Position numbers and translations under genes: made by a program | The notes under the pieces: generated by a model | Told to the model about the DNA's origin: nothing | Seen by the model: the letters and a program-made list of their open reading frames with translations, nothing else | The model's database searches: none | Shown here: piece after piece, positions 1 to 53,393 of the stretch | Layout of the letters: each line of letters opens with the position of its first letter | Position numbering within the stretch: position 1 is the first letter of the stretch | Assembly (NCBI GenBank): GCA_020634415.1 | Contig: JACKBT010000032.1 | Location: forward strand, 1-53,561 | Direction of reading: 5' to 3' | Length of the DNA stretch: 53,561 nucleotides | Source of the DNA: Ardenticatenaceae bacterium | Lineage (GTDB): Bacteria > Chloroflexota > Anaerolineae > Promineifilales > Promineifilaceae

Positions 1-926
1 ATGACGTTGGTTTCATTATCAAAACCATCCATCTCGACCAAAATCTGGTTAAGCGTCTGTTCACGCTCATCGTGCCCACCACCTAAACCAGCCCCACGCT
101 GCCGACCGACGGCATCAATTTCGTCTACAAAGACGATGGCGGGGGCGCTTTGTTTGGCTTTGTCGAACAAGTCGCGCACGCGGCTGGCACCCACACCTAC
201 AAACATCTCCACAAATTCAGAGCCGGAGATGTGGAAGAAGGGCACGCCCGCTTCACCCGCGACGGCACGGGCCAGAAGGGTTTTACCCGTACCAGGCGGG
301 CCAACCATGAGAACGCCTTTGGGGATACGGGCCCCAACCTGCACAAATTTTTCTGGTTCGCGCAGGAATTGTACCACTTCGGCCAGGTCTTCTTTGGCCT
401 CCTCGACACCCGCCACATCGTCAAAAGTGACGGTGGGACGGTTGGCATCGTTGAGGTTTTTGGCTCGGCTGCGGCCAAAGCCAAAGATGCTGTTGCCACC
501 ACCGGACTGCATCTGCCGGAAACCCCGGCTGAATATCCAGATGATAAGGAGGATGGGGCCGATGGTGATGGCGATGCTGATGAAGGCATCACGGCTTGAT
601 TGATCGCGCACGGTGAGTTCCACACTGCTTAGATCTTCGGCGGTGATGCCATAGAATTGGAGGGTCTCGGCTAGGGTATCTCCTGTAGGCTTGAAGGTGG
701 TGATTTTTTCGTCATTGGTTTTAGTTACTTCGAGTCTATCGCCTGTGACTATGATTTGTTTGACACGGCCGTCTTCTACGAGGGTCATGACTTCTTGTAT
801 GCCTACCTGGTCGGGGCCATCAAAACGGCCGGTGAACCAAAGCTGCAAAACTAAGATGACCCCGAAGACGACTAAAATCCAGACCCAGGCTGGTATGGGG
901 GGGCGAGAATTGGGTTGTTCGTCCAT
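1..926 (-). CDS. ftsH: ATP-dependent zinc metalloprotease FtsH, N-terminal part (cut by the window edge)
   Basis: Membrane-anchored AAA+ protease that degrades misfolded and short-lived proteins. The reverse-strand reading from an ATG at 926 begins [20 protein letters not shown], giving TM helix 1, then an extracytoplasmic domain, then TM helix 2 ([13 protein letters not shown]). The AAA module follows: the linker motif [16 protein letters not shown], Walker A GPPGTGKT, the pore-loop motif [16 protein letters not shown], Walker [12 protein letters not shown] and part of the second region of homology. About 308 residues are present. The HExxH protease domain lies beyond position 1. The start is supported by an AAGGA ribosome site just upstream. 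The sigma factor gene ends 84 bases upstream on the same strand, so co-transcription is possible. Family assignment is essentially certain. Confidence 0.97.
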
Positions 927-1010
927 GATTGTTTCCTTAAAACGTTAAAACGTTGGGTGGTTTCTGTACGTTATTATCTCCTGTCATTGTACGCGGAAAT
1001 AGGAGAGCTT

Positions 1011-1877: not shown

Positions 1878-2672
1878 ATGAATTATTATGACAACTCCGA
1901 TTCCTCGTCATCTGTTGGTTATCAGCCGTCCCGCTATCTTCTCTGGCATCTGGCCCGTAATAATATTCCCACACTTGTCTTTTTAGGGTTGGCGCTGGCG
2001 GGTATGTTCCTGGTTTATTGGTATTTTAAGCCGACGTTTGGCGTAGCCGAAACGGCCGTTGCCGCCACCCTCCCCGAAAACGCCCTCTCCGCCCCCATCT
2101 ACAAAGATGCCCCTTCCCAAGCCGTTATCCAACGGCTGCCGCAAAGCCCCGGCCCCATTCGCGTGGGCATTATTGCCGGGCACAAAGATAATGACAGCGG
2201 TGCCGTTTGTGATGATGGCCTGACAGAAGCAGCCATAAATGCCGACATTGCCAACCAGGTAGTTAACATCCTGCAAGAACATGGCGTAGCCGCCGAAATT
2301 TTAAGCGAATTCGACCCCCGGCTCACAAATTATTCAGCCACAGCCCTCGTTTCTATCCATGCCGACTCCTGTATCTATTACAACGACTTAGCCACAGGTT
2401 TTAAGATTGCTGGCTCCTCATACACCAACTCAGAAGCCCTTTCTATCTGTGTAGAACATGCCTACCGCGAGGCTACCCAACTTCCCTACCATGCCAACAC
2501 CATCACCGAACATATGACGGATTATCACGCCTTCCGCAAAATTGGGGCGGGCACACCGGCCATCATCGTGGAAACAGGGTTTATGAATCTGGATCGGGAG
2601 ATATTGACGACCAACTCCAACATTCCCGCCCTGGGAATTAGCAATGGCATTCTTTGTTTTTTGAACCAATAA
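1878..2672 (+). CDS. N-acetylmuramoyl-L-alanine amidase (Amidase_3 family), membrane anchored
   Basis: Zinc amidase that cuts the bond between MurNAc and the peptide stem of peptidoglycan. One TM helix lies at about residues 31-50 (PTLVFLGLALAGMFLVYWYF), followed by a linker and the catalytic domain from about residue 94. Likely zinc ligands and catalytic residues are H102 (in IIAGHKDNDSG), E117 (LTEAAI), H161 (SIHADS) and E232 (IVETGFM), which matches the family pattern. At 264 residues it is a single-domain enzyme. It should act outside the membrane. An L,D-transpeptidase gene starts 12 bases downstream, so the two probably form a cell-wall remodelling operon. Confidence 0.9.
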   Translation: MNYYDNSDSSSSVGYQPSRYLLWHLARNNIPTLVFLGLALAGMFLVYWYFKPTFGVAETAVAATLPENALSAPIYKDAPSQAVIQRLPQSPGPIRVGIIAGHKDNDSGAVCDDGLTEAAINADIANQVVNILQEHGVAAEILSEFDPRLTNYSATALVSIHADSCIYYNDLATGFKIAGSSYTNSEALSICVEHAYREATQLPYHANTITEHMTDYHAFRKIGAGTPAIIVETGFMNLDREILTTNSNIPALGISNGILCFLNQ

Positions 2673-2684
2673 CGAAGTGGACTA

Positions 2685-3770
2685 ATGGATAGTACAACAT
2701 TGCTCAAGCAAGCGCACAACGCGATTAAGGCGGGGGACAAAAGTCATGCCCGGCAGCTATTGCAGGAGGCAGTGCGGCAAGATGCGCAGGATTATCGCGG
2801 CTGGTTATGGCTTGCCAGCCTCACGGCCTCGCCTCAGGCCAGTTTGGAGTATGTGAATCGGGCCGAAATGCTGAACCCAAATAACCCGCATGTGCAGAAG
2901 GCGCGGGCGTGGGCGGAGGCCCGGGTGCTGAAGGAGCAGCGGGAGCGGGAAGAGGAGAGAGGAGAGAGGAGAGAGGGGTTGGAAACGGCCGTTTCCCAAC
3001 CATCCACCACCCCACCCCGTAACTGGCGCAAACTGGCTGTGCGCACGAGTGGGGCTTTGTTACTCATCCTGTTCGTTGTGACCGGCGTGTTCTTAATTTG
3101 GAACAGTTGGTTTAACCCCTTGCCAGCCGATGTGACCATCGCAGCGGATGTGACCGGGGGCGAGATGGCGGCGGTGATAGCCACAGCCACACCGGAAACG
3201 ATTGTGCCAACGGTGACACCCACCCTAACGGCCGTTGCCCTTCAACCCAAAAACCTGGTCGCCAACAGTGACCATCCCCGCGCCACCTGGACATTAACCC
3301 CCACTCCCACCGATACCCCCATCCCCACCGACACACCTCCGCCCACCTACATCAGTGAATCTGGCGGCAATTCGGTGCGCGGACGGCCGTTAGGGGTTGG
3401 GCCTAACGAACGCTGGATTGACGTAGACCTGACCACACAGACATTGGTCGCCTACGAAGGCAACGAATCCATCTTCGAAACCTTAATCTCCAGCGGCACC
3501 TGGGAGCATCCCACCGTAACCGGCCAATTTCGCATCTGGCTCAAATACGAAGCCCAGACAATGGACGGCAGTTTACTCGGTTATGATTATTATCTGGAAA
3601 ATGTTCCCTATGTGATGTATTTTTACAATGATTACGCCTTACATGGCACATTCTGGCACAGCAATTTTGGCACACCGATGAGTCATGGCTGCGTAAACAT
3701 GGAAACATCAGATGCTCAATGGGTCTTCTCTTGGGCAGGCATCGGAACTGTGGTCAATGTGCATTATTAA
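2685..3770 (+). CDS. L,D-transpeptidase (YkuD domain) with N-terminal TPR-like region and TM helix
   Basis: Cysteine transpeptidase that forms 3-3 peptidoglycan cross-links or attaches proteins to the wall. Residues 1-95 are TPR-like helices (DAQDYRGWLWLASLTASPQASLEYVNRAEMLNPNN...). They are followed by a charged Glu/Arg stretch, a TM helix at about 117-137 (SGALLLILFVVTGVFLIWN), and a Thr/Pro-rich linker typical of a segment crossing the wall. The YkuD domain runs from about residue 240 to the end. Its active site is HGTFWHSNFG...MSHGCVNM, with H334 and C336 as likely catalytic residues. An intracellular TPR segment joined to an extracellular transpeptidase is unusual but not unique. It probably shares an operon with the upstream amidase. 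Confidence 0.9.
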   Translation: MDSTTLLKQAHNAIKAGDKSHARQLLQEAVRQDAQDYRGWLWLASLTASPQASLEYVNRAEMLNPNNPHVQKARAWAEARVLKEQREREEERGERREGLETAVSQPSTTPPRNWRKLAVRTSGALLLILFVVTGVFLIWNSWFNPLPADVTIAADVTGGEMAAVIATATPETIVPTVTPTLTAVALQPKNLVANSDHPRATWTLTPTPTDTPIPTDTPPPTYISESGGNSVRGRPLGVGPNERWIDVDLTTQTLVAYEGNESIFETLISSGTWEHPTVTGQFRIWLKYEAQTMDGSLLGYDYYLENVPYVMYFYNDYALHGTFWHSNFGTPMSHGCVNMETSDAQWVFSWAGIGTVVNVHY

Positions 3771-3785
3771 TGGCGGGAAAGCAAC

Positions 3786-4232
3786 GTGGCAGTAGAACAT
3801 CAACTGGAAGGGGATACGGCCGTTTACACCATCATTGGTCTATTTGACCGTGACACAGCCAAACAATACCTCTCCCTCAACACCCAAGACTACAATCAAA
3901 TTGGTGATGCCTTAGGAGCCATCATAGATTACCGTCAGATGACCCGCTTCACCATCAGCGGCTTACGCATTGTCCAGGAAAACCTGCGCGGCGTTCAATT
4001 TGAAACCCCCGTCGCCTTCATCGGCAATCCCGACAGCATTCTCATCACCTTTCTCAAAGGCTTAGAGGCCCTCACCAGTCGGGGCAACAGCCGATTTTCC
4101 TTCTTCAAAGACCTGGATGAGGCCCAAAAATGGATTGATGCCTGGTATGTTACCAATCGCAAGGATCGCCAAGCCCTACGTGGGCAAGTCAGCACAACGT
4201 ATCACTTTCCCAGGCAGCAGCAAACGGAGTAA
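3786..4232 (+). CDS. Small protein of possible STAS/SpoIIAA-like fold
   Basis: A 148-residue protein starting at GTG, 15 bases after the L,D-transpeptidase. No motif gives a firm function. The pattern (EHQLEGDTAVYTIIGLFDRDTAKQYL...GAIIDYRQMTRFTISGLRIVQENLRG...PVAFIGNPDSILITFLKGLEALT...FFKDLDEAQKWID) alternates strands and helices. It ends with the 'F.dleeA..Wl' feature seen in SpoIIAA-like STAS proteins. That resemblance is by eye only. It lies between the cell-wall pair and purA on the same strand. Confidence 0.6.
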   Translation: MAVEHQLEGDTAVYTIIGLFDRDTAKQYLSLNTQDYNQIGDALGAIIDYRQMTRFTISGLRIVQENLRGVQFETPVAFIGNPDSILITFLKGLEALTSRGNSRFSFFKDLDEAQKWIDAWYVTNRKDRQALRGQVSTTYHFPRQQQTE

Positions 4233-4285
4233 CCATCAACATATCAGCCAGGAAATAAGAGGACCTGGAAAAGGAGATATTTATT

Positions 4286-5575
4286 ATGCCTTTAGACATC
4301 ATCATTGGCGCACAATGGGGCGATGAAGGTAAAGGGCGCATTACGGATCTATTTGCCGCCCAGGCCGATATTGTGGCCCGCTACAGCGGTGGGGACAATG
4401 CCGGACACACCTTAACCGTACAGGGCGAGATTTTTAAGCTGCATCTCATCCCCTCAGGCATTGTTCACGAAGGCGTCGTTTGCCTCATCGGCAGCGGCGT
4501 GGTCATTAACCCGGCCGTTTTTCTGCGCGAATTGGATGCTTTGCAAAGCCGAGGCGTAGATGTCGGCCCTGACCGTCTGAAAATCAGCCACAATGCCCAT
4601 CTCATTACGCCCGCCCACGTGGCCCTAGACAAGGCGATGGAGCAGCAGCGTGGCGATGAGGCGATTGGCACAACGCAGCGCGGCATTGGCCCCGCCTACA
4701 CAGACAAAACCAGCCGTGTGGGCCTGCGGGCCGGCTCGCTAGCCGACTCAGAAGGGTTGGGTGATCTCATTCACGCTCATATTCGGGCTAAAAATGAGGT
4801 GCTGACGCAGATTTATGGGGCGGAACCGCTAGAGGCAACGGCCGTTGCCGCCCAATATGCCGACTACGCCCGCCGTATCGAACCCTATCTCGTCAATGGC
4901 CCTGCATTTTTGGATGAGGCCCTGCGCAACGGCCGTACCGTGCTGGCCGAAGGCGCCCAAGGCACATTCCTCGATCTCGACCATGGCACATACCCCTTTG
5001 TCACCAGCTCCTCCCCTTCCGCAGGCGGGGCCTTAATTGGTTTGGGCGTGGGGCCAAAGGTGGTGGGGCGCATTGTGGGCGTAACAAAGGCGTTTACCAG
5101 CCGCGTGGGCAGCGGGCCATTTGTAACCGAGTTGAGTGGGGAAACGGCCGTTCGTTTGCGGGGCACAGGCGACAAACCCTGGGACGAATTTGGCACCACC
5201 ACCGGCCGACCGCGCCGCGTCGGCTGGCTCGATCTCGTCATGCTCGATCACGCCCGCCGCATCAACAGCTTCACCGAACTCGTCATCACCAAACTAGACA
5301 TCCTCAGCGGCATCGAACAGATACCCGTTTGCGTCGCCTACGAACAAAACGGCAAACGGCTAGACGGCTTCCCCCCCGATCTCAAAACATTAGCTCTATG
5401 CCAACCTATCTATGAGACATTGCCCGGCTGGACAGAAGACATCATGTCCATCACAGAGTGGGCCAATTTGCCCCCCAACGCCCAAAATTACCTTCAATTC
5501 ATCACCGAAACCACAGGCATACCTGTCACCTATGCGTCAGTAGGGCCAGGTCGGGAACAAGTAATCCAGTTATAA
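4286..5575 (+). CDS. purA: Adenylosuccinate synthetase
   Basis: Catalyses GTP-dependent ligation of IMP and aspartate, the first committed step from IMP to AMP. The 429-residue length is normal. Family signatures are the N-terminal P-loop variant GAQWGDEGKGRITD (residues 8-21), GGDNAGHT with the catalytic His, QRGIGPAYTDKTSRVGLRAG, EGAQGTFLDLDHGTYPFVTSSSP, and GTTTGRPRRVGWLD followed by KLDILSG. A good AGGAG site lies about 10 bases before the ATG. Three copies of the window-wide palindrome ACGGCCGT are inside the gene, encoding TAV or NGR tripeptides in non-catalytic positions. Confidence 0.98.
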   Translation: MPLDIIIGAQWGDEGKGRITDLFAAQADIVARYSGGDNAGHTLTVQGEIFKLHLIPSGIVHEGVVCLIGSGVVINPAVFLRELDALQSRGVDVGPDRLKISHNAHLITPAHVALDKAMEQQRGDEAIGTTQRGIGPAYTDKTSRVGLRAGSLADSEGLGDLIHAHIRAKNEVLTQIYGAEPLEATAVAAQYADYARRIEPYLVNGPAFLDEALRNGRTVLAEGAQGTFLDLDHGTYPFVTSSSPSAGGALIGLGVGPKVVGRIVGVTKAFTSRVGSGPFVTELSGETAVRLRGTGDKPWDEFGTTTGRPRRVGWLDLVMLDHARRINSFTELVITKLDILSGIEQIPVCVAYEQNGKRLDGFPPDLKTLALCQPIYETLPGWTEDIMSITEWANLPPNAQNYLQFITETTGIPVTYASVGPGREQVIQL

Positions 5576-5606
5576 AAGAAACTCGGTAAGCTTTGCTGGT
5601 TGCCAT

Positions 5607-8600
5607 ATGAAATACAAACTCAAGGGTATTCGCTTCCTAGGGCGAATACCCTTACAGGCCATCCTCATCATTCCCTTCGTCATTCAAGTTGTCCTGATCG
5701 TGGGCATCACTGGCTATCTCTCGTTTCGGAATGGCGAGCAAGCCGTAAACAGTTTGGTGGTGGGACTGCAAGACGAGGTAGCCCATCGCATAGAAGAACG
5801 GCTGCATCAATATTTAACGCTGCCCCACTTACTAAATCAAGTAGAAGGGGCCGCCATTGAAACAGGCCAGCTAGATATAACCGATGAATCGGCCCTATTG
5901 ACCTTTTTTTGGCAGAGTTTACGGTCGTTCCCCGAATTAAATGCCACCTTTTTAGGCACAGAAGAGGGAGTGATGGTGGGGGTACGTCACCCTACCGGGC
6001 GCGGACTAGAGGTCATATTAAGCAGTGCCACAACAGCCCACAGCCTTAACTATTACACGGCAGATGATAAAGGCCAGCCTGGTGAGCTGGTGGAGACGGC
6101 CCCCGACTATGACCCACGCCAGCGCAGTTGGTATGTTGACGCTCTGAAAATTGGACATTCCCACTGGAGTCCCATTTATCTGGATTTTGCCACGGAGATG
6201 CCGGTGATTACCGCCGGGATGCCTGTGCATAATGGCGGCGGGGAGTTGGTGGGGGTTGTGGGCAGTGCGTTTCAGTTTGAGCAGGTGAATGCTTTTTTGC
6301 GCGACCTAGATATTAGCGAACATGGGCAAACGTTTATTATGGAACGGAATGGGCTGCTGGTGAGCAGTTCGTCGGCAGCACCGATTTCTCGGCAGACGGA
6401 GGGGGGGGTGGTTCGGTTACAGGCGGTTGAAAGTGAGGATTTGGTGGAGCGGGAAACGGCCGTCTTCCTCCAAAACAAATTCAGCAGCCTCCACGCCATC
6501 CAAGAAAATCAAAACCTCATCATCCCCATTAACAACGTTGACTATTACGTCCATCTCACCCCCATCACCGATGCTCATGGCCTCGACTGGCTCGTCGCCA
6601 TCATCATCCCCACCACCGATTTCATGGCGGAGATTCAGGCCAACAACCGCCTCACCCTTCAGGCCATCTTGCTGGCACTGCTTGCTTCTACGCTCATTGG
6701 AATGCTGACGGCGCGGTGGGTGATACGGCCGTTAATCATCCTGCGCAATTCCGCCCTTGCCTTTTCACGAGGGGATTGGCAGGTGCGCGTACCCGTTCAC
6801 CGCGAAGGTGAACTAGGCCAATTAGCCCAAGCCTTCAACCAGATGGCCGAACAGTTACAAAACGCCTTCACCACCATGGAGCATCGTGTAACCGAACGCA
6901 CCGAAGAGTTAGCCCAGGCCCGCGATGCCCTCGAGATGCGCGTACAGCAGCGCACCGCCGAACTCACCGCCGCCAACCAAGCCTTACAACAAAGCCAGGC
7001 CCGCTATGAAAGCATGTTCGATTACGTCCCCATCATGTTATGGGAAGAAGACTTCTCCCCCGTCAAACAGCTTATTACCGGTCTCCAGCAGCAAGGCATT
7101 ACCGACTTCAACGCTTATTTCACCGCCCATCCCGAAATTGTCATCCAATGTGTCAGCTCCGTCAGAATAATTGCCGTTAACCAAACAACGGTTGACATTC
7201 TCAAAGCCGACAAAGAGACGATCATGGCCCACCTCGATCGTTTCTTTGGCGAGAGTGCCTATGATGCCTTTCAAAAAGAGCTGGTCGCTTTGTCTCAGGG
7301 TCACACCCACTTTCATTCAGAATCAGATGCCCTGGCGGCCGACGGCCGTCAATTCCGCATCCAACTACGGCTGGCCATCGTACCCGGACACGAACACGAT
7401 TGGTCGCGGGTTCTCGTATCCGTCGAAGACATCTCCTATCGGCATGAAATTGAGGAAGCCCTGCGGCGCAGCGAAAAACGCCTTAAACAAGCCCAACGCA
7501 TGGCCCAACTGGGAAATTGGGAAGTTGACCTGACCACCCAGACCACCTCCTGGTCTGAGGAAATCTACCACATTCTGGAAATTCCTCTGGGAACCCCTCC
7601 ACCTGCATTAGCACAGCACATAGCCTATTATCTGCCAGAGGATCAGCCCAAGTTTCAGGCACTTATGCAATCGGTTATAGAAGCCAAACAAGAGATGGCC
7701 GATACCTACCGCGTCCAACTGCCATCAGGCAAAATTATTCATCTTGTTGTCACCATCTTCCCCATGTTTGATGAAAACGGCCGTATGACCAAACTCAGCG
7801 GCACCATCCAAGACATCACCGATCGCGTCCTCCTAGAAAAACAAGTCCAAGAACAAGAACGCCTGGCCGCTGTAGGGCAGCTAGCCGCAGGCATCGCCCA
7901 CGACTTCAACAACATCCTATCCAGCATGACCCTCTACACCGACCTCCTGCTGCGCACCCTGCCCGACCTGTCCCCCCAAAACCGCAAACGCCTGGAAGTG
8001 CTGGCCCGGCAAGAAGAACGAGCCGCCCAACTCATTCAGCAAATCCTAGACTTCAGCCGCCGCTCCCCCCTGGTACGCAGACCCACCAACATCCTGCAAT
8101 CCCTCCAAGAACTGGCCGAAATTCTGGAACGCACCCTGCCCGACAACATCCTCGTCGAATTCAACCACGATGCCTTAGCCTACATGGCCGATATTGACCC
8201 CACCCGCATTCAACAAGTCTTCATGAACCTGGCCGTCAACGCCCGCGATGCCATGCCCGCAGGCGGCAATTTAATCATCTCCGTCACCGACCGCTACTTC
8301 CACAACCACGATAAATTACCTATGGCCGATATGCCCGCTGGCGAGTGGATTGAAATTCAGGTCAGCGACAACGGCATCGGCATCCCCGAAGAGGATTTAC
8401 CGCGCCTGTTTGAGCCATTTTTTACTACCAAAGAACCGGGCAAAGGCACAGGCTTGGGCCTGGCCCAGGTGTATGGCATTATCACCCAGCACAATGGCTT
8501 TATTTTAATAGAAAGTCAGGTGCAAGTAGGCACAACCTTTACCATCTACCTGCCCATGATTTCTGAGTGGGATGAGGCGCACCAAGCCTGGCAGGTGGAG

Positions 8601-8978
8601 GAGGCCGAAAAGGGGCATGGCGAAACCATTCTGGTGGTTGAGGATAATGAATCTACCCGCGAGGCGGTGGTGGCTGCTTTGGAGATGCTTAATTACCAGA
8701 CCTTAACGGCCGTTAACGGCCGTCAAGCCCTCACCATCTTACAACAGCCCCCCGCCCCCATCCACATCGTCCTCAGCGACATGCTCATGCCCGAAATGAG
8801 CGGCCTGCAAATGGTAGCCGCCATGCAAAAACACAACATCCATTTGCCCGTCATCATCCTATCAGGCCACATCTTAGAAGAAGATTTAGAAAAGATGCAC
8901 CAACTCAACATCTCCAGTTGGCTGCACAAACCCCCCAACCTCAAAGAGCTAGCCACCATGCTCAAGCAGATTTTGTAA
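5607..8978 (+). CDS. Hybrid sensor histidine kinase / response regulator with extracytoplasmic Cache-like domain
   Basis: Membrane sensor kinase of 1123 residues. Order of parts: TM1 at about 16-39, a large extracytoplasmic sensor resembling double Cache (about 40-345, with YDPRQRSWYVDA and related motifs), TM2 at about 349-370 and HAMP to about 425. A coiled coil follows, then a PAS-like region at about 468-590, a second PAS at about 634-745, HisKA with phospho-accepting H765 ([13 protein letters not shown]), HATPase with N, G1 and G2 boxes ([25 protein letters not shown]) and a C-terminal receiver with D1058 (IVLSDMLMPEMSG). The AHDFNN H-box is the NtrB-like type. The final output partner is not encoded nearby. 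It starts 31 bases after purA. The minus-strand kinase at 35360-38425 has the same C-terminal layout. Confidence 0.93.
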   Translation: MKYKLKGIRFLGRIPLQAILIIPFVIQVVLIVGITGYLSFRNGEQAVNSLVVGLQDEVAHRIEERLHQYLTLPHLLNQVEGAAIETGQLDITDESALLTFFWQSLRSFPELNATFLGTEEGVMVGVRHPTGRGLEVILSSATTAHSLNYYTADDKGQPGELVETAPDYDPRQRSWYVDALKIGHSHWSPIYLDFATEMPVITAGMPVHNGGGELVGVVGSAFQFEQVNAFLRDLDISEHGQTFIMERNGLLVSSSSAAPISRQTEGGVVRLQAVESEDLVERETAVFLQNKFSSLHAIQENQNLIIPINNVDYYVHLTPITDAHGLDWLVAIIIPTTDFMAEIQANNRLTLQAILLALLASTLIGMLTARWVIRPLIILRNSALAFSRGDWQVRVPVHREGELGQLAQAFNQMAEQLQNAFTTMEHRVTERTEELAQARDALEMRVQQRTAELTAANQALQQSQARYESMFDYVPIMLWEEDFSPVKQLITGLQQQGITDFNAYFTAHPEIVIQCVSSVRIIAVNQTTVDILKADKETIMAHLDRFFGESAYDAFQKELVALSQGHTHFHSESDALAADGRQFRIQLRLAIVPGHEHDWSRVLVSVEDISYRHEIEEALRRSEKRLKQAQRMAQLGNWEVDLTTQTTSWSEEIYHILEIPLGTPPPALAQHIAYYLPEDQPKFQALMQSVIEAKQEMADTYRVQLPSGKIIHLVVTIFPMFDENGRMTKLSGTIQDITDRVLLEKQVQEQERLAAVGQLAAGIAHDFNNILSSMTLYTDLLLRTLPDLSPQNRKRLEVLARQEERAAQLIQQILDFSRRSPLVRRPTNILQSLQELAEILERTLPDNILVEFNHDALAYMADIDPTRIQQVFMNLAVNARDAMPAGGNLIISVTDRYFHNHDKLPMADMPAGEWIEIQVSDNGIGIPEEDLPRLFEPFFTTKEPGKGTGLGLAQVYGIITQHNGFILIESQVQVGTTFTIYLPMISEWDEAHQAWQVEEAEKGHGETILVVEDNESTREAVVAALEMLNYQTLTAVNGRQALTILQQPPAPIHIVLSDMLMPEMSGLQMVAAMQKHNIHLPVIILSGHILEEDLEKMHQLNISSWLHKPPNLKELATMLKQIL

Positions 8979-9027
8979 ATGGGGATGAACGGTTGTAGAT
9001 CAAGAAATAAATCGGGGAAACAATGTT

Positions 9028-9069
9028 GGACGATTTTGTAAATCGTCCGAGCGATTTGCAAAATCGCTC
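9028..9069. repeat. Paired-hairpin repeat (single copy, inverse orientation to the 38.5-kb cluster)
   Basis: Two adjacent perfect hairpins with 9-base arms and 3-base loops: arms 9028-9036/9040-9048 (GGACGATTT / AAATCGTCC) and 9049-9057/9061-9069 (GAGCGATTT / AAATCGCTC). CTACAG follows. The same pair of hairpins, reverse-complemented, makes up the repeats at 38516-38854. It sits between the convergent ends of the kinase and ychF and could act as a bidirectional terminator. Confidence 0.85.
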
Positions 9070-9130
9070 TACAGTTATTACCCGATCAATTATTTAAAGA
9101 CCAACCGTTCATCCCTCATTTTACTGCCCC

Positions 9131-10213: not shown

Positions 10214-10249
10214 AATACCTCAAGCTACTATATAAAAATTCATCTACTG

Positions 10250-10300
10250 CTAGACTACCAGACTACCAGACCAATAGACTACCAGACTACCCAAGTATAC
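10250..10300. repeat. Short direct repeats (AGACTACC word) upstream of ychF
   Basis: The word AGACTACC recurs four times in about 45 bases (10253-10290 region). It belongs to the group of intergenic gaps built from one short iterated word, but here no reverse-complement half is present. Confidence 0.6.
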
Positions 10301-10388
10301 CAACAGCCCGCCCATTTGCCCCAAAACGAGCATTGTCACGACGATCAACCATCGGTACAATACTTTACCATAAGAGGCACTTATCAAA

Positions 10389-12688: not shown

Positions 12689-12709
12689 GACCGTTCACGG
12701 ATAACAACT

Positions 12710-41948: not shown

Positions 41949-41972
41949 CCCCACCCCCAATCTAACAACCTA

Positions 41973-42018: not shown

Positions 42019-42023
42019 ATGCC

Positions 42024-42250: not shown

Positions 42251-42253
42251 ATC

Positions 42254-43048: not shown

Positions 43049-43056
43049 AGGCCCCC

Positions 43057-43833: not shown

Positions 43834-43985
43834 AACCGGCGGCGTTTTTGCTGGCGGAGGATGCAGATTTGGCGGTGGAACGGCCGTTTTTCCTATCGCG
43901 GTTCCTCAAACCCTTTTGGCTCATGGTAACGGCCGTTGGGGCTGTGGGGCTTGGTGGCGGCCTTTGGTGGCTGCGCCGCCGTTAG
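43701..43985 (+). pseudogene. C-terminal tail of a membrane-anchored glycoside hydrolase
   Basis: TEVAGYVAWTLYDFAQVPNAVVGFWPWRKGPQQHLGLITEDGALKPAAFLLAEDADL is the typical end of a TIM-barrel glycoside hydrolase ('G...W.lyDf......g....p.q.h.Gl...dG..Kpaa'), followed by one TM helix (PFWLMVTAVGAVGLGGGLWWLRRR). The barrel and its catalytic residues are missing. One inserted C at 43694-43700 would put it in frame with the IMS gene, so either a large internal deletion or an assembly gap is likely. Confidence 0.65.
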
Positions 43986-44019
43986 CACACAAATACCTGC
44001 AAAGAAACCTCAACCGAAT

Positions 44020-44057
44020 AAGATGTAGGGTCGAGGCGTGCCTCGACCCTACATCTT
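44020..44057. terminator. Strong perfect hairpin between convergent genes
   Basis: AAGATGTAGGGTCGAGGC (44020-44037) pairs with 44040-44057 over all 18 positions with a 2-base centre. It may end both the plus-strand remnant and the clostripain gene. No T-run, so it could instead be a dispersed palindromic repeat. I recall similar GTAGGGxCGAGGC palindromes in other genomes but cannot confirm. Confidence 0.65.
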
Positions 44058-44148
44058 GTGTCAACCCCATAAATTCCTAAAGAACCAATTTTCGTTCCTG
44101 AGGGCATTTATTACATAACCCCTTTCAAGACGCGGTAAGGTTCCGCGG

Positions 44149-46854: not shown

Positions 46855-47084
46855 GACGGTCCAGTCGGCCAGTTGGGGGGCGAAGGTGGGAGAGGGCAGG
46901 GGAACGGCCGTTGGCCGGGGCGTGGGTGTGGGGGAAGAGTGGCGAGGGAGTGGGAGTGGAGGGATTAACGGCTGTGGCGCTGATGGTGGGCAAAAGCAGT
47001 GCGTGAGCCTAAACTCAAGGCATCACAGGCAGAAAACAAAAAGACAAGGGCAACAAGAGAGAAAATTTTTGCTAAGGGATCGGA
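46855..47084. other. Region upstream of the clostripain start
   Basis: Pro/Thr-rich linker codons continue upstream of the first ATG in one frame. A second frame from a TTG at 46993 (LLPTISATAVNPSTPTPSPLFP) also looks like linker, so a frameshift in the C-run near 46940 is plausible. No signal peptide or promoter recognised. Confidence 0.5.
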
Positions 47085-47519
47085 TCATGCCCGATTTTTA
47101 TCACGAATAGGAACGTTATAGCAATTTTGGAATCCAGCCTGCGCAAAATGTTGGTCAGAGGTGAAAGCAGAAGTAGCTGAAGCTGCTTCATAACAACAAA
47201 GCTCGTGCAATCAGTTAGGCCCCAATCTTTATCCAGACGATGGCTATACAAATACCAACCTTCATCCATTAGCTCCTGACTGACTGGCACAATTGTTAAT
47301 GGTGCTAGGTTTGACAAAGAATTTAAGAAACCAACTGTTCGCGAGCGAAATGGGTGAGCAGTTAAAGCATCAGCTACTTTAACAAAACAAAGCCCGTTGT
47401 AAGCAAACTAACTTTTGGCCTCGCAACTGATTCATTATTTCCTGGGCTTGTACATGATATTTGTCTCGACTATTCAACAAGGCAAGCCAGGCAACAGTAT
47501 CTACAAATACTGTGGTCAA
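47085..47519 (-). pseudogene. PIN-domain toxin (VapC-like), broken by frameshifts
   Basis: Reading on from the antitoxin, a TTG at 47519 gives MTTVFVDTVAWLALLNSRDKYHVQAQEIMNQLRGQKLV (PIN N-terminus with the first acidic residue). Frames then change near 47405 and 47370 to give VADALTAHPFRSRTVGFLNSLSNLAPLTIVPVSQELMDEGWYLYSHRLDKDWGLTDCTSFVVMKQLQ, and again near 47175 to give TSAFTSDQHFAQAGFQNCYNVPIRDKNRA before the stop at 47085. All PIN acidic motifs (VDT, DKDWGLTDC, SDQHF) survive in pieces, but no single frame spans them. The start overlaps the antitoxin stop, as in an intact pair. Confidence 0.82.
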
Positions 47520-47794
47520 CTGTCACCTCGTTTGGGTGTACCATAGAGATAGTGATCATGCTCGTGTGCTAGATCCTCTATGCCCACATCTACTACCGCA
47601 TCAGCTATGGTTTTCATCAAACTGTCCCAACCTGCTTCATCGTCATCTATGGCTTGGGCAACGTTTTCTTTATAAGTTGTTAACATAGCAATCAAATCTT
47701 CCCAGACTTGCAAATCTAGCTGTACAGCTTTTCGTTGCCCCTCACCATCAACTACATATTGAACTTCTGCCAGTAATGTTTCTACACGCATCAT
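47516..47794 (-). CDS. Antitoxin of a type II toxin-antitoxin pair
   Basis: A 92-residue protein, ATG at 47794 with GAGGAAT upstream. The segment EVQYVVDGEGQRKAVQLDLQVWEDLIAMLTTYKE is the usual N-terminal pattern of small antitoxins that pair with PIN toxins. The rest is acidic (AIDDDEAGWDSLMKTIADAVVDVGIEDLAHEHDHYLYG). It is intact, although its toxin partner immediately downstream is frameshifted. Confidence 0.8.
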   Translation of the reverse strand: MMRVETLLAEVQYVVDGEGQRKAVQLDLQVWEDLIAMLTTYKENVAQAIDDDEAGWDSLMKTIADAVVDVGIEDLAHEHDHYLYGTPKRGDS

Positions 47795-47873
47795 TATAAT
47801 TCCTCGGATTGCAAGTTGGTTACATTATAACAGAATTAGTTTTAGCAGATCATGCCTGTTCGGGAGAAGAGCT

Positions 47874-48428
47874 TTAATCGCCAACTCTGAATTTCGGCAG
47901 ATTATCGGCGGGGATATGACGGAGGCGGGGGTTTTGGGTGTCGCGGGGGGAGATGATTGGGCTGGTTGTGCCCCAGTCGAGGCCGATGTCGGGATCGTTC
48001 CAGGCGACGCCGTTTTCGTCACGGCCGTTATAATAATTATCCACCACGTAGGTATGAATGGCATCGGTAAGCGCCAAAAAGCCATGCGCCACCCCGACGG
48101 GGATGAAGAGACCAATCTGGTTGTCATCCCCCATTTCGATGAGTTGGGTGCAGAGGTGGGTGGGGGAAAACGGCCGTAAATCCACCAACCCCGCCCGTAT
48201 CTGTCCCTGCTGCACATACCAATAATCCACCTGCTGGTGGTGATAGTGCAGACCCCGCAGCACACCTGCTTTGGAATCGGAGCGGTTGGTCTGGATGATG
48301 TCCCAACTGCGCTGGGGAAACCATTCTTTGCGGAACGTCTCTAAAAAACGGCCGCGTTCATCACTAAAGACTTGTAAATGGACAATGTAAACACCGGAAA
48401 TGTGTTGGGATTCTGTGATAAGGGGCAT
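47874..48428 (-). CDS. rfbC: dTDP-4-dehydrorhamnose 3,5-epimerase
   Basis: Cupin-fold epimerase of the dTDP-L-rhamnose pathway, 184 residues from ATG 48428. An earlier ATG at 48461 lies in the CCTCCGGGAGGATT repeat and would add NPPGGCISLF, not family-like. Motifs: GVYIVHLQVFSDERGRFLETFRKEWF, the catalytic-His motif AGVLRGLHYHHQQVD, QLIEMGDDNQIGLFIPVGVAHGFLAL and DPDIGLDWG. The other rhamnose genes are not in the window. Confidence 0.93.
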   Translation of the reverse strand: MPLITESQHISGVYIVHLQVFSDERGRFLETFRKEWFPQRSWDIIQTNRSDSKAGVLRGLHYHHQQVDYWYVQQGQIRAGLVDLRPFSPTHLCTQLIEMGDDNQIGLFIPVGVAHGFLALTDAIHTYVVDNYYNGRDENGVAWNDPDIGLDWGTTSPIISPRDTQNPRLRHIPADNLPKFRVGD

Positions 48429-48445
48429 AAAAAGACTTATACACC

Positions 48446-48499
48446 CTCCGGGAGGATTCATTCAGGATGCTTCTTCTAGGGAAACCCTCCCAGAGGATT
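48446..48499. repeat. CCTCCGGGAGGATT / CCTCCCAGAGGATT pair
   Basis: Two related words, CCCTCCGGGAGGATT (from about 48444) and CCCTCCCAGAGGATT (from about 48485), flank a 27-base spacer between proline dehydrogenase and rfbC. The first is itself palindromic (CCTCCGGGAGG). Confidence 0.6.
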
Positions 48500-48514
48500 T
48501 GGTAACTCACGTAA

Positions 48515-49522
48515 TTATCGGAAGAAATTGCTGATAAAGAACCAAAGATTGGCGGGGCGTTCGGCCAGGCGGCGCACAAAATAGGGATACCAGGCCGTGC
48601 CGTAGGGGACATAAATACGCATTCGGTAGCCCTGGGCCACAATTTGCTCTTGCAAATCGCGCCGAATGCCGTACAGCATTTGAAATTCAAACTCGTCAGG
48701 GGAAAGTCCCTGGCTTTGCACATAGGCAAAAGTGGCGTTTATCATTTTCTCGTCATGGGTGGCGACACCGATATACACGCCGTTTTGCCGCGCCTGCTGG
48801 CTTAACAGCATCTGCGTCAGGGTGATGAAATTGGCATCGGTGTCGGCTTTGTCGGGAAAGGCCCGCTCTGGCGGCTCGGCATAAGCGCCTTTGCAAAGGC
48901 GTATCCAGGCTCCTTCTTCGATGAGTTGACGCACATCTTGCTCGGTGCGGTAGAGGTAGGCTTGCAGGACAACGCCGACATTGTTGAAGCCGTCTTCATG
49001 GCGCAGGGTGCGGTAGAGGTTGAGGGTGGTGTCTATGAGGGCACTTTCTTCCATGTCTATGCGGATTCGGTTGTTGTATTGGCGGGCGCGGGTGAGGATG
49101 GTGCGCATGTTGTTGAGGGCGAGGTGGGTGTCTAGTTTGATACCCAGTTGGCTGAGTTTGATGGAGACGTTGGCGTTGACACCGCTTTGGTGGATGTGGT
49201 CTAGCAGGCGCAGGATTTCGTCGCGGGCGGCCAGGGCTTCATCGGCCGTGGTCACGCTTTCGCCCAGGTAGTCCATTGTTACAAACAGGCCTTTGGTGTT
49301 TAGCTCTTGGGCGGCGGTGATGGCATCGGCTATGGTTTCACCGGCGACGAAGCGGCTGGATACTCGTTTGGCCAGAGGGAGGTTGCTGATAAGTTCGCGG
49401 GCCCAGACGGCCGTTGACAAGTAAAGTAACAGCGAACGTAACCAATGTTCGCTATATTGAACAAGTAAAATGGTCGCAATAACCAAACCAATGAATAGTG
49501 GGATAACTTTCAGTTTTTTCAT
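48515..49522 (-). CDS. Proline dehydrogenase
   Basis: FAD-dependent oxidation of proline to pyrroline-5-carboxylate. At 335 residues it is a monofunctional enzyme. Seen: RFVAGETIADAITAAQELNTKGLFVTMDYLGESV, VSIKLSQLGIKLD, IRIDMEESALIDTTL, VVLQAYLYRTEQDV, RLCKGAYAEPPERAFPDK and FEFQMLYGIRRDLQ...RIYVPYGTAWYPYFVRRLAERPAN, all along the usual beta/alpha barrel. The N-terminus adds a hydrophobic helix (IPLFIGLVIATILLVQY) before the usual start. This could be a membrane anchor or an upstream over-extension. No pyrroline-carboxylate dehydrogenase gene is adjacent. Confidence 0.93.
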   Translation of the reverse strand: MKKLKVIPLFIGLVIATILLVQYSEHWLRSLLLYLSTAVWARELISNLPLAKRVSSRFVAGETIADAITAAQELNTKGLFVTMDYLGESVTTADEALAARDEILRLLDHIHQSGVNANVSIKLSQLGIKLDTHLALNNMRTILTRARQYNNRIRIDMEESALIDTTLNLYRTLRHEDGFNNVGVVLQAYLYRTEQDVRQLIEEGAWIRLCKGAYAEPPERAFPDKADTDANFITLTQMLLSQQARQNGVYIGVATHDEKMINATFAYVQSQGLSPDEFEFQMLYGIRRDLQEQIVAQGYRMRIYVPYGTAWYPYFVRRLAERPANLWFFISNFFR

Positions 49523-49871
49523 GACAGCTTCATTTTACAGATAAACAAAAAAAGTTGAAATGAATTCTACTTTTCATTTGCTCACGAATCCATTATGATT
49601 GCACAGATCAGGCAAAGCGTGAGTAACCTGTAATTGACAAACCAATACACTCGCAAAATCAATCAAGTATGCTGCACGATAGATGATGTTTCATCTATCG
49701 GATCCCTTCACCCTGGCTCTTTATACCCTTCATTAAAATGGTTAGGATTTACGAAGTCGCTCTGGCAGATGTTTAGCCGAGCCAGTTGACTGGCTTGTTG
49801 TATGTGAGCAACGCCTGTTGGTTTAGGTTTGGCAATTTGGCGGATCATTATTCTTAGCACATTTTCTTACC
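49523..49871. other. 349-base intergenic gap with one hairpin
   Basis: Divergent promoter region of proline dehydrogenase and the large kinase. No gene seen. CGATAGATGA (49677-49686) and TCATCTATCG (49691-49700) form a perfect 10-bp stem with a 4-base loop, of unknown role. The iterated AACGGCCGTT palindrome is absent here. Confidence 0.7.
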
Positions 49872-52800
49872 ATGTTTGAATCACTTATCCAATCGCTAGA
49901 TGCCATTGTTTGGATGGCAGAAAAAGAGACGCTGCAATTCCGCTTTGTAAATCAACAAGCAGAAAGAATTTTGGGGTATCCAGCAGACCATTGGTTGTCG
50001 GAGCCGCATTTCTGGCGGGAGCATCTTCACCCTGATGATGCGGAGTTTGTGCTGAATGCCTGCCGCGAGTTAACGGCCGATTCGGCCCCCCTACAACTAG
50101 AATACCGAATGCGCAGTCAGGACGGCCGTTACCTTTGGCTGCGCGACCACATCAGCCTTCACCCTGACCAACCGGGCCTCTTACAGGGCATCAAGTTCGA
50201 TCTGACCGCCCACAAGCAGATTGATGAAAATCAGCAGGAACGAACGGCCGTTTTGCACGAATTTGCTCGTCTGGTCAGTGCCACCCTCGATCATCGGCAG
50301 GTGCTTCAACAAAGCCTCACCCACTTAAAGCGTGTCATGTCTTTTGAATCCGCTTCTATCTACCTCAATCCACGGGATGAACAACCAGAGTTTGTGGCTG
50401 GCATTGGTTATGAAGATGAAGTGATGACCTCGCAAGAAGCCCAACAACTACTCAAAAACAGCCCAATTTTGGCACAAATGGCCCAAGATTTGCAGCCTGT
50501 TTTAAGCAGCGATGTTAGGCATTTGGCAGGTTGGATATGGATTGCAGGAGCGGACCATGTGCGCTCCTTTATCGCTGTACCATTGGTTGGCTACGATCAG
50601 GAAATGATGGGCGCATTGATGATTGATAGCAAGGAAGTGGGCTTTTTTACCAATGCCGATATGCAGTTGGTGAAGGCATTAGCCAGCCATCTGGCTATCG
50701 CCATCGAAAATGCCTGGTTGTATGAAGCGGCGCAGCGGCAGTTGGCCGAAAAAAGTGCTTTGTTGGCAGCGGGAACGGCCGTTTCCTCCAGCCTCGACCT
50801 ATCCATCATCCTCACCAAACTCAGCCAGGCCATCGGCGAAGCCCTTCACGTAACCAGCGTATACATCTGCGATTGGAACGCCTACAACCAAACCACAACC
50901 GTCCTGGCCGAATATTACAGCCAAGCCGCCTCTGCCCCAGAAAGGCTCTCTGATCTGGGCAAAACCTATCACGTCCCCAGCCATTTTGGCAGCTACAAAA
51001 ACTGGCTGACTGAACGAAGAATCGTTACCGAGCATGTAGACGACCCCACGCTTACCGCGTATGAAAAAGCACACATGAAGCACTATGGGGGACATTCCAT
51101 TCTCTATATCCCTCTGGTAGTCAGGGATGAAGTCATTGGCTACATTGAACTATGGGAGAGCCGCCAGCACCGTGACTTTACCCCCATGGAGTTGGCTATT
51201 AGTCAGGGTATTGCCCAACATGCAGCCATCGCCTTAGCCAATGCCCAACTGTATGCGGCGGAAGCCCAACGCCGGAATGAAGCGGAAATATTAAAAAACC
51301 TGACAATTAATCTCACCAGCACACTTGAATTGGATGAGGTATTTTTGCGTGTTATTGAAGCCATCCGCTTGCATATGCCCCATGCTCACAATTGCGGCAT
51401 CTCTTTGCTGGAAAATAATGGGCAAACACTGCGTATGCGTGCTTCTTGGGCAGAACGTCCAGAATTTCAATTTGCGACAAGAGGCACCGTGGTTGCGGTT
51501 GCGGATACAGCCCACTCACGGACTGTTTTGGAGAGTCGTAAGCCGCTGGCAGTGGCCGATGCGTGGCAGGAAGAACCTCTTTCTGAACGCGGTGACCACT
51601 TTCGTGCTACTGGCCTGCGCTCTATTTTGTATGCACCTTTGTTAATTCATAATGAACCTATCGGCATTCTCCACCTCAATTTTTGGCATGAACCGCGCTA
51701 TTTTCAGTTGGAAGAGATTTCTTTTTGTCAAAGCGTGGCTAACCAGGCAGCTATTTCCATTGAGAATGCGCGATTATTTGAGAAGGAGCGACGAGCGGCT
51801 AAGGAGTTGGCGATTTTACATGAACTGGCTTTGGCAACGGCCGTTACCCTGGATATAGACAGCCTGCTCCTGCAAACAACCGAAAAAATGGTCAGTAACT
51901 TCTACTCATATGCCTTTGGCTTCACCTTAATTGATCCAGAAAGCAATCGTTTGCGCATTCATCGCTCTTTTCATGGCCTTACCGCCAAAGCAATAGAATC
52001 AGAAGTGCCCACCAACAGCATTGCAGGGCATGTGTTTGCCACCGGCAAACCCTATATCAGCGGGGATGTCCGCCAAGACCCTCTTTATTTTTGTCATGTT
52101 CCCACCACCCGTTCGCGCATCGCCGTACCTTTGCAAATTCGGGGCCAAATCATTGGTGTCATTAACGCCTCTAGCCCAGAAGTGGATGCGTTTGATGAGC
52201 AGGATTTGCGCTTTTTGGGGACTTTAGCCAGCCAGGTGGCCACGGCCGTTGAACGCACACGCCTCTATGAAACCCTGCAAGAACAGGCTGATGTTCTGGC
52301 CAAGCAAGTAGCCGAACGCACCGCCGAATTACAGGAGGAACATGACCGCACGATGGCTATTTTGGAAAGTGCCGGGGAAGGGATCGTCCTGACAGATACC
52401 GAAGGCAACATCATTTACGCCAACCCCGCCATGACCCGGCAGAGTGGCTATTCCCACCATGAACTGCTGCAAAAGACAGCGGCCATATGGACGAGTGACC
52501 AGACACCGGAATCTGTTTATCGTGAGCTTTGGGAGGCTTTGGGTAACGGCCGTTTCTGGTCCGGCGAACTCGTCAGCCAACGACAAAATGGCACCTATTA
52601 CGACATCAACCTCATCCTCTCCCCCATTCACGATGCCCGCGAAAACATCACCAGTTTCGTGGCAGTTCAATCAGACATCAGCCGACTTAAAGAGATAGAA
52701 CGCCTCAAAACAAAGTTTGTCTCCAATGTTTCCCACGAGCTGCGCACACCCCTCACCAACATCAAGATGTATCACACCTTGTTAGAGCGTGGTCGAGTTG

Positions 52801-53393
52801 AAAAGCGCGACCACTATCTACACATACTCAATCAAGAAACAGAGCGATTAGAGCGGCTGATTCAAGACCTGCTCGATCTATCTCGCCTGGAAACGGCGGG
52901 CGCACCTGATTTAACGGCCGTTACCAACGCCCTCGCCAACCTGGATGTCCTCTTCACCCTTTACACCAACAAAGCCAAAAAGAAAAGCATCCTCTTCTCC
53001 AAAGAAATAGACACCCACTTACCCCCCATCCAAATCACTGAGCAGCACTTTGAACAACTCATCAACAACCTGCTAGGCAACGCCATCGCCTATACTCCCA
53101 TAGAAGGATTCATCAACCTGCACGCCATCAGCAACAGCCAGTCGGCCCACATCCAAATTACCAACAGCGGGCCAGGCATCCCCGCCAGCGATCTTCCCCA
53201 TGTATTTGACCGCTTCTACCGGGGACAGGCGGCCCAAGAATTAGCCGCTCCAGGCACAGGTTTGGGTTTGGCAATTTGCAAAGAAATCGTTGAAAGATAT
53301 AACGGCCGTATCGAAATCCAAAGCGAACCCCATCACCACACAACCATCACCATCTTCCTCCCCATCGCCCAAACAAAAATCCCGGAAAGCTGA
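49872..53393 (+). CDS. Soluble sensor histidine kinase with PAS, four GAF and PAS domains
   Basis: A 1173-residue kinase without TM helices, so probably cytoplasmic. Order: PAS (about 1-115, DAIVWMAEKETLQFRFVNQQAERILGY), then four GAF domains (about 128-280, 305-455, 470-630 and 640-800). A coiled coil follows (ETLQEQADVLAKQVAERTAELQEEHDR), then a second PAS (about 835-945, IVLTDTEGNIIYANPAMTRQSGY), HisKA with H955 (VSNVSHELRTPLTNIKMYHTLL) and HATPase (NLLGNAIAYTP, NSGPGI, GTGLGLAICKEIVERYNG). No receiver. No chromophore-binding Cys is evident, so the GAF ligands are unknown. Partner regulator not nearby. Confidence 0.93.
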   Translation: MFESLIQSLDAIVWMAEKETLQFRFVNQQAERILGYPADHWLSEPHFWREHLHPDDAEFVLNACRELTADSAPLQLEYRMRSQDGRYLWLRDHISLHPDQPGLLQGIKFDLTAHKQIDENQQERTAVLHEFARLVSATLDHRQVLQQSLTHLKRVMSFESASIYLNPRDEQPEFVAGIGYEDEVMTSQEAQQLLKNSPILAQMAQDLQPVLSSDVRHLAGWIWIAGADHVRSFIAVPLVGYDQEMMGALMIDSKEVGFFTNADMQLVKALASHLAIAIENAWLYEAAQRQLAEKSALLAAGTAVSSSLDLSIILTKLSQAIGEALHVTSVYICDWNAYNQTTTVLAEYYSQAASAPERLSDLGKTYHVPSHFGSYKNWLTERRIVTEHVDDPTLTAYEKAHMKHYGGHSILYIPLVVRDEVIGYIELWESRQHRDFTPMELAISQGIAQHAAIALANAQLYAAEAQRRNEAEILKNLTINLTSTLELDEVFLRVIEAIRLHMPHAHNCGISLLENNGQTLRMRASWAERPEFQFATRGTVVAVADTAHSRTVLESRKPLAVADAWQEEPLSERGDHFRATGLRSILYAPLLIHNEPIGILHLNFWHEPRYFQLEEISFCQSVANQAAISIENARLFEKERRAAKELAILHELALATAVTLDIDSLLLQTTEKMVSNFYSYAFGFTLIDPESNRLRIHRSFHGLTAKAIESEVPTNSIAGHVFATGKPYISGDVRQDPLYFCHVPTTRSRIAVPLQIRGQIIGVINASSPEVDAFDEQDLRFLGTLASQVATAVERTRLYETLQEQADVLAKQVAERTAELQEEHDRTMAILESAGEGIVLTDTEGNIIYANPAMTRQSGYSHHELLQKTAAIWTSDQTPESVYRELWEALGNGRFWSGELVSQRQNGTYYDINLILSPIHDARENITSFVAVQSDISRLKEIERLKTKFVSNVSHELRTPLTNIKMYHTLLERGRVEKRDHYLHILNQETERLERLIQDLLDLSRLETAGAPDLTAVTNALANLDVLFTLYTNKAKKKSILFSKEIDTHLPPIQITEQHFEQLINNLLGNAIAYTPIEGFINLHAISNSQSAHIQITNSGPGIPASDLPHVFDRFYRGQAAQELAAPGTGLGLAICKEIVERYNGRIEIQSEPHHHTTITIFLPIAQTKIPES

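Follow-up and report, generated by a model that had tools for sequence, protein, structure and literature searches.

The stretch of DNA analysed here (the window: 53,561 nucleotides, contig JACKBT010000032.1 of assembly GCA_020634415.1, from an Ardenticatenaceae bacterium) carries the palindromic octamer ACGGCCGT about every 560 letters, which raises the question of what has filled it with a single word and what keeps the word in place. We think it likely that the window belongs to an array of the highly iterated palindrome (HIP) kind in one order of uncultured Chloroflexota, whose CGGCCG core is the target of an amino-methyltransferase related to the modification half of NotI/EagI-type systems, mostly without a restriction partner and with its sites accumulating.

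The array in the window and in related genomes

We counted 96 copies of ACGGCCGT in the window (1792 per Mb), against a mean of 0.92 (standard deviation 1.07, maximum 5) in 100 dinucleotide-preserving shuffles. Markov models of order 1, 2 and 3 predict 0.95, 1.55 and 3.54 copies. A maximum-order Markov model predicts 183 where 192 are seen (both strands counted), which is an unfair null because the model is built from the 7-mers of ACGGCCGT itself. When 31 open reading frames (ORFs) were shuffled among synonymous codons for 300 rounds, with protein and codon use kept, ACGGCCGT appeared 8.2 times (maximum 17) against 88 seen, and its extended form, the decamer AACGGCCGTT, 0.7 times (maximum 4) against 37. 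The two kinds of shuffle rule out chance or codon use as the source of the array. The initial annotation had put the octamer at about 95 copies, with one or two expected, and the full decamer at about forty; our counts agree with both, and the Markov or codon-shuffled model that it named as capable of overturning its claim gave 8 copies against 88. ACGGCCGT is the top palindromic octamer of the window, the runner-up TTTGCAAA having 11 copies against about 2 expected, and the core CGGCCG occurs 148 times. Entirely within ORFs lie 88 of the 96 sites; ORFs make up 87% of the window, and there is therefore no intergenic preference. Spacing is near random (mean 553, standard deviation 489, Kolmogorov-Smirnov p 0.06), and 47 of the 88 coding copies are translated as Thr-Ala-Val. 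The features of the window are as follows.

765..53309, no strand: array of 96 copies of the palindrome ACGGCCGT, judged by the shuffle and codon-shuffle nulls; starts 765, 1019, 2052, 2985, 3228, 3383, 3816, 4838, 4929, 5144, 6456, 6725, 7342, 7777, 8706, 8716, 9318, 9676, 10092, 10629, 11169, 12502, 12581, 12944, 13660, 13982, 14818, 15561, 15583, 18430, 18576, 18984, 19825, 20370, 20520, 20941, 21114, 21668, 21901, 21951, 24777, 25766, 26553, 27483, 28191, 29384, 30035, 30183, 30744, 31035, 31251, 31452, 31842, 32079, 32588, 33249, 33394, 34700, 35624, 36686, 37850, 38031, 38954, 39099, 39285, 39435, 39916, 40440, 40484, 41757, 41930, 42073, 42396, 42923, 43678, 43880, 43929, 44248, 45148, 45586, 45890, 45935, 46151, 46696, 46904, 48021, 48170, 49407, 50122, 50244, 50775, 51837, 52242, 52546, 52914, 53302
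2051..52922, no strand: 42 copies of AACGGCCGTT, judged by the synonymous shuffle (0.7 against 37 in ORFs); starts 2051, 2984, 3227, 4837, 5143, 8705, 9317, 9675, 13659, 18575, 19824, 20369, 20519, 21113, 25765, 26552, 27482, 28190, 30182, 30743, 31034, 31250, 31841, 32587, 33393, 38953, 39098, 40483, 41756, 41929, 42072, 42922, 43677, 43879, 43928, 45889, 46903, 50243, 50774, 51836, 52545, 52913
4286..5575, plus strand: purA (adenylosuccinate synthetase), a core gene with sites at 4838, 4929 and 5144, which placed the window among its relatives
9131..10213, minus strand: ychF-type GTPase, a core gene with sites at 9318, 9676 and 10092
15591..18429, no strand: longest stretch free of ACGGCCGT (2.8 kb), within the ORF of a 2063-residue TPR protein (15438-21629)

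Among the core genes first said to bear the word, purA and ychF do so with three sites each on opposite strands; ftsH was not found among the 30 ORFs scanned with Pfam, a subset of those in the window. A second site-free stretch of 2.8 kb lies at 21959-24776. Other palindromes are strongly depleted in the window (GGATCC 1 against 15.8 expected, GGCGCC 2 against 32.9, GGGCCC 3 against 36.3, CCCGGG 3 against 29.1, GTGCAC 1 against 17.2), which suggests past or present restriction systems.

Relatives were surveyed in a class-wide set of 396 genomes, of which the order makes up 56, with the reverse of the core, GCCGGC, as control word; genomes are cited by our own G numbers. The closest public genomes to the window's purA are Chloroflexota (57%). 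Within the class set the gene is 63-73% identical to that of 22 genomes, all of them among the order's 56; named relatives at 70-73% identity include Candidatus Leptofilum and Ardenticatenaceae, and those at or above 70% are Chloroflexota. A purA tree left the inner branching of the order mostly unresolved. CGGCCG outnumbers GCCGGC in 52 of the 56 order genomes and does so at least 2.5-fold in 37 (median ratio 3.37), the genomes without excess being G403, G311, G404 and G339. Thirteen of the 396 class genomes hold the decamer at more than 350 per Mb, nine more have 79-877 copies and the remaining 374 at most 29; in 80 loci from many phyla it had zero copies. These counts rule out a genomic island and contradict the prospect, raised at the outset, of a motif common solely in the window. 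The claim that the array is a genome-wide property is borne out in the relatives, both by the order-wide CGGCCG excess and by the decamer-rich genomes, and we infer the same for the window's own genome. Opposite extremes occur in the same order: G404 (L372), which has no methyltransferase of the family described below, has nearly purged CGGCCG (447 against 7315 GCCGGC, whole genome), and GCCGGC is nearly missing while CGGCCG is abundant in G185 (51 in 8.0 Mb) and G155 (132 in 4.1 Mb).

An invariant core, shifting flanks and an imprint on proteins

Variation within the word is confined largely to its edges. In 314 kb of DNA pooled from the ACGGCCGT set, the word tolerates substitution of one base at position 1 or 8 (TCGGCCGT at 5.7-fold, GCGGCCGT at 2.5-fold, CCGGCCGT at 1.0-fold), and the other single changes stand at 0.3- to 1.7-fold. 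Dialects were surveyed in 53 of the 56 order genomes, sampled at 3-60 kb each (G419, G420 and G325 lie outside the sample). The core CGGCCG is common to the dialects and its flank is lineage-specific. The ACGGCCGT dialect is clear in the window and 18 genomes, plus G399, G400, G405-G410 and G414; GCGGCCGC prevails in G185 (102 in 60 kb against 1.6 expected) and TCGGCCGA in G098 (94 in 60 kb, 1.6 expected) and G401 (27 in 20 kb, 0.5 expected). Bare CGGCCG with no dominant flank stands at 7- to 15-fold in G285, G208, G155, G356 and G418 and at 5.2-fold in G228, and more weakly, at 2.3- to 3.2-fold, in G071, G039, G118, G332, G294, G276, G411 and G412. Small samples gave no clear dialect call for G402, G413, G415, G416 and G417, and CGGCCG was at or below 1.5-fold in the samples of G339, G311, G403 and G404. 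The next outer base tracks the dialect, being A in the ACGGCCGT set (50%), C in G185 (67%) and T in G098 (71%), and weak arms surround ACGGCCGT, G-rich on the 5' side and C-rich on the 3' side (G at 46-47% at -3 and -4 against 27%). The invariant core is thus CGGCCG, and the flanks shift between lineages among ACGGCCGT, GCGGCCGC, TCGGCCGA or none.

Individual sites are maintained at the DNA level. G366 and G350, compared over 20 kb at 74% nucleotide identity, have 31 sites in common, with 16 in G366 only and 6 in G350 only. By comparison, retention of 8-mers matched in GC content is 10% (6% if they contain two CpG), and identity over the 20 flanking bases, at 69%, does not exceed the average. 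Across six genome pairs, among which genomes recur, each genome keeps 57-92% of its sites, compared with 10-59% of equal-GC 8-mers (6-64% if they hold two CpG). Flank identity ranges from 5 points under the average to 2 over it. A smaller earlier retention test agreed in four of five pairs, the exception being G248-G303, with one of three sites in common over 2.3 kb aligned. Orthologous sites in related genomes, whose comparison the initial annotation had suggested, are retained well above equal-GC 8-mers.

The sites also reshape proteins, and the affected tripeptides follow the local dialect: Thr-Ala-Val stands at 6.4 times and Asn-Gly-Arg at 4.6 times expectation in the ACGGCCGT set, Ala-Ala-Ala at 4.7 times in G185, and Ser-Ala-Glu at 8.3 times and Phe-Gly-Arg at 4.1 times in G098. 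All five are at 0.4-1.3 times in a pooled sample without the word. The pressure on the DNA is, as the Thr-Ala-Val excess illustrates, strong enough to set protein sequence.

A candidate methyltransferase and its NotI-family partner

In eight enriched genomes with few other hits, weak and split PF01555 matches proved to be one protein of about 660 residues each (in G319 a contig-end fragment). Its layout runs from an S-adenosylmethionine (SAM) motif through zinc-ribbon-like cysteines to a T-D-P-P-Y motif. Across 31 sequences D78-P79-M80-M81-G82-G83 and T470-D471-P472-P473-Y474 are invariant, and PF01555 is above cut-off. The predicted structure is a Rossmann methyltransferase (predicted local distance difference test 88.8) whose best fold matches are mostly RNA or small-molecule methyltransferases, and CcrM; searches of solved structures returned no close relative. 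The best NCBIfam model is DUF1156_antiphage and the best PADLOC models are Type II methyltransferases. By its motifs and domain match the protein qualifies as a putative DNA amino-methyltransferase. It is present in 43 of the 56 order genomes (E < 1e-80), in at least ten of them as pieces from contig ends or, in G098, from a frame change. Relatives of the enzyme at 61-62% identity are named Candidatus Leptofilum, on contigs of up to 6.36 Mb. In that TCGGCCGA genome the gene lies in two overlapping frames on a 740-kb contig (C1, 577104-579036; L241, L329, L333) and is either broken or marred by a sequencing error.

The family's distribution follows that of the word in large part. Within the order, CGGCCG is above control in 42 of the 43 genomes that carry the methyltransferase and in 10 of the 13 that do not (Fisher p 0.035), and G339, G311 and G404 have neither enzyme nor enrichment. 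Across the class, where CGGCCG-rich denotes a ratio of at least 2.5 and at least 1000 copies per Mb, the enzyme (at least 48% identity, among the matches listed) occurs in 20 of the 25 CGGCCG-rich genomes and in 31 of the other 371 (p 1e-15). Three of these (G135, G132 and G213) count on fragments of 94-221 residues. Because no more than three candidates were scored per genome, an absence is less certain at the level of the class than in the order.

Other common factors were sought and set aside. Methyltransferases forming 5-methylcytosine (m5C; PF00145) are missing from 6 of the 13 decamer-richest genomes. Among the matches listed for conventional N6/N4 methylases, only the ~660-residue family turned up repeatedly in the eight enriched genomes that have few of them. 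A profile search for a divergent copy in G137, G285, G208, G155, G356, G339 and G311 had no match with E under 0.01; in G098 it recovered the split gene already described. One m5C gene is common to G155, G356 and G071 (L117, L118, L131; 65-71% identical) and, within the comparisons made, leaves the gap unfilled: of the six m5C hits in G285, the two compared with it are different genes (43-44% at best), and G208 has none. On the enzyme tree the dialects require 6 changes against 20.1 with shuffled labels, seven of nine genomes labelled bare fall in one subclade (100/100), and the two TCGGCCGA genomes are the two longest branches, grouped in 72% of bootstraps; part of this agreement could come from species descent alone.

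The enzyme's neighbours suggest a link to restriction systems. The NotI site is GCGGCCGC and the EagI site is CGGCCG. Nine methyltransferase loci outside the order have their neighbours listed, and at eight a co-oriented nuclease-type gene adjoins; the two of these that were scanned belong to the NotI family (PF12183; E 3.5e-58 in G154 and 5e-8 in G282), as does the gene adjoining in G185 (E 5.5e-11). The NotI structure 3bvq gave a weak profile match (E 0.12) and no match by single-sequence search. Outside the order, 15 of 24 listed enzyme-bearing genomes have the nuclease, adjoining the methyltransferase in 14 (in G359 it is on another contig). Inside the order, it is found in 2 of 27 enzyme-bearing genomes tested (p 5e-5), adjoining in both G185 and G248, and also in G405. 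As a separate observation, a neighbour of about 400 residues (221 in G396) recurs downstream of the methyltransferase in G098, G185, G303, G362, G376 and G396 (including L196 and L237); the two members scanned (G362 and G185) carry a NurA domain, and the neighbour may act in DNA end processing.

Mechanism, rival explanations and known systems

We propose the following course of events. Judged by its distribution, the restriction partner would have been lost in most order members, and we take it to have been lost rather than never gained. Methylation of CGGCCG, presumably by the ~660-residue enzyme, would have been retained after loss of the nuclease, so that carrying sites would no longer harm the host. 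Sites would then be gained and held, perhaps with a methylated lattice useful to the cell, for example in mismatch-repair strand marking or chromosome organisation; alternatively, methylation-directed repair biased towards the site could make them accumulate. That methylation drives the accumulation, and that the lattice has any cellular role, is our inference from these patterns. Selection for the lattice and biased repair both predict retention, and the current data are compatible with either. The flank dialects would probably follow drift of the methyltransferase's preference. In the model of Elhai, methylation-directed mismatch repair biased to G-methyl-C makes methylated words accumulate (PMC4390886); the inner C of CGGCCG satisfies this model, and the outer A..T, T..A and G..C are then unpredicted, so a drifting enzyme preference or a second reader is needed.

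A bolder version, which we hold tentatively and slightly below even chances, is that the nuclease was lost, the surviving methyltransferase turned an avoided target into the most abundant word, and drift of its specificity rewrites genome and proteins. On this view HIP arrays would be what methyltransferase domestication generally leads to, and would have arisen independently in Cyanobacteria and Chloroflexota.

Several observations weigh against the methyltransferase account. The CGGCCG-rich threshold was picked after the counts were known, and kinship inflates every p value. Ten order genomes with a ratio above 1 show no methyltransferase (G155, G414, G137, G415, G285, G418, G356, G419, G208 and G420), and these include the purA clade of G285, G208 and G356 and the ACGGCCGT users G137 and G414; draft gaps could account for some of the ten, hardly for all. 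G403 has a contig-end fragment of the gene and is not enriched, and outside the order enzymes 62-65% identical occur without enrichment (G181, G154 and G079). G164, G083 and G203 combine the nuclease with a CGGCCG ratio above 2, and the order members G185, G248 and G405 retain the nuclease yet are enriched. On the enzyme tree, the two long branches are of uncertain placement, and G098 is represented by half its gene. For the window's own genome the enzyme is presumed. Finally, the DPPY motif is more usual in adenine than in cytosine methyltransferases, and CGGCCG contains no A, so that m4C would be the expected mark. The mismatches (enzyme-less enriched genomes, unenriched carriers, a kept nuclease) indicate a second CGGCCG enzyme in part of the order, or arrays that outlast the enzyme, or an enzyme that is not the cause. 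The original suggestion of a methylation or restriction target with a solitary methyltransferase gains support from a family that often adjoins a NotI-family nuclease outside the order and mostly stands alone inside it, although ten enriched genomes of the order are without the gene.

Of the rivals, the best placed, though we regard it as unlikely, is that a sequence-specific protein of the nucleoid, of segregation or of repair binds the word, as with KOPS or Chi, the density of the word being selected and the methyltransferase an inherited bystander. Retention of single sites though their flanks are not retained, the weak G-rich and C-rich arms and the ten enriched genomes showing no ~660-residue enzyme would all fit. 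However, the core is a known NotI/EagI-type target, the enzyme that accompanies it is paired with a NotI-family nuclease in genomes outside the order, the flanks switch between lineages and a palindrome gives no strand polarity. We rate marginally lower the possibility that a different CGGCCG methyltransferase is the common cause and the ~660-residue family co-occurs by descent. G285, G356, G208 and G418, at 7- to 15-fold CGGCCG in sampled DNA, and G419, with a high whole-genome ratio, all without the gene, speak for such an enzyme; yet PF00145 is missing from those six decamer-rich genomes, no other PF01555 member is common to all eight enriched genomes with few hits (among the matches listed), and G208 has no hits to PF00145 or PF01555, the families searched among methylases. 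A signal for DNA uptake or recombination, of the kind that has dialects in Neisseriaceae and Pasteurellaceae, would share the density and lineage dialects; it is very improbable, since uptake words are not known to be palindromic and the NotI-type enzyme link would be left unexplained. Mutational or codon and amino-acid bias alone, with no DNA-level target, could point to the Thr-Ala-Val share of coding copies and is scarcely credible given the synonymous shuffles (8 against 88), tripeptides that match the dialect of each genome set and fall to about expectation where that dialect is missing, and sites retained far above equal-GC 8-mers.

What leads cyanobacteria to saturate their genomes with HIP1 is a long-standing question that is hard to test in one phylum. 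The Chloroflexota order is apparently a separate case with natural contrasts (genomes with and without the enzyme, with and without the nuclease, and three flank dialects on one core), in which the methylation hypothesis for HIP arrays becomes directly testable. We found no published report of the ACGGCCGT array, the phylum, one-core dialects or the NotI-type enzyme in a search whose coverage excluded most subscription journals and preprints, and literature holding the string ACGGCCGT included none on this topic among the matches listed. In kind the phenomenon is a HIP array; its word, phylum, dialects and NotI-type enzyme appear to be new, not having been found in print.

HIP1 (GCGATCGC) and alternate HIPs make a palindromic octamer the dominant word of Cyanobacteria, at about 500-2500 per Mb (PMC4390886). 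The window's array is alike in its dominant palindromic octamer and in a density within that range; deviations cluster at positions 1 and 8, palindromic extensions occur, the word changes between lineages and most genomes hold a candidate solitary methyltransferase. Of the features that Elhai lists, we find over-representation, genome-scale density (in relatives) and variants concentrated at outer positions; a candidate for the matching methyltransferase, of putative specificity, is present in 43 of 56 order genomes and 42 of the 52 with ratio above 1. HIP1 was therefore an apt precedent to have been named at the outset. The array is not HIP1 proper, since the word is ACGGCCGT, not GCGATCGC, and the named purA relatives at or above 70% are Chloroflexota, not cyanobacteria. 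Unlike HIPs, it lies in another phylum and sets the flank dialects A..T, G..C and T..A on one core, and its candidate enzyme comes from a different family, one that in relatives is found with a NotI-type partner. Two of its flanks are unpredicted by Elhai's G-methyl-C ratchet if the outer C is methylated, and CGGCCG has zero matches in the main text of PMC4390886.

Other precedents are more distant. Helicobacter over-represents the CCGG restriction-modification site, unexplained, at a mild ratio of about 1.4-1.5 (PMC4687349), against 3- to 15-fold for CGGCCG in clearly enriched samples. Three Chloroflexi drafts have other methylated motifs in common, namely GANTC, TTAA and GCWGC (PMC6329791). 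Like DNA methylases of the DUF1156 and COG1743 kind, the ~660-residue enzyme has motif I, zinc-ribbon-like cysteines and then a DPPY motif IV; unlike DUF1156_antiphage, it is about 300 residues shorter and far under cut-off (67 of 1000 bits). DNA uptake sequences are likewise dense short words with lineage dialects, but are non-palindromic and tied to uptake machinery.

The closest enzymatic parallel is with type II systems of the NotI family (PF12183), in which methyltransferase and nuclease adjoin, as they do in G185, G248 and G405 and in relatives from beyond the order; G185 even accumulates GCGGCCGC, by textbook knowledge the NotI site. Unlike those systems, 25 of the 27 enzyme-bearing order members tested have no nuclease, the specificity is putative, and the sites are accumulated rather than avoided. 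Judged by gene content, most enriched genomes carry no complete NotI-family system.

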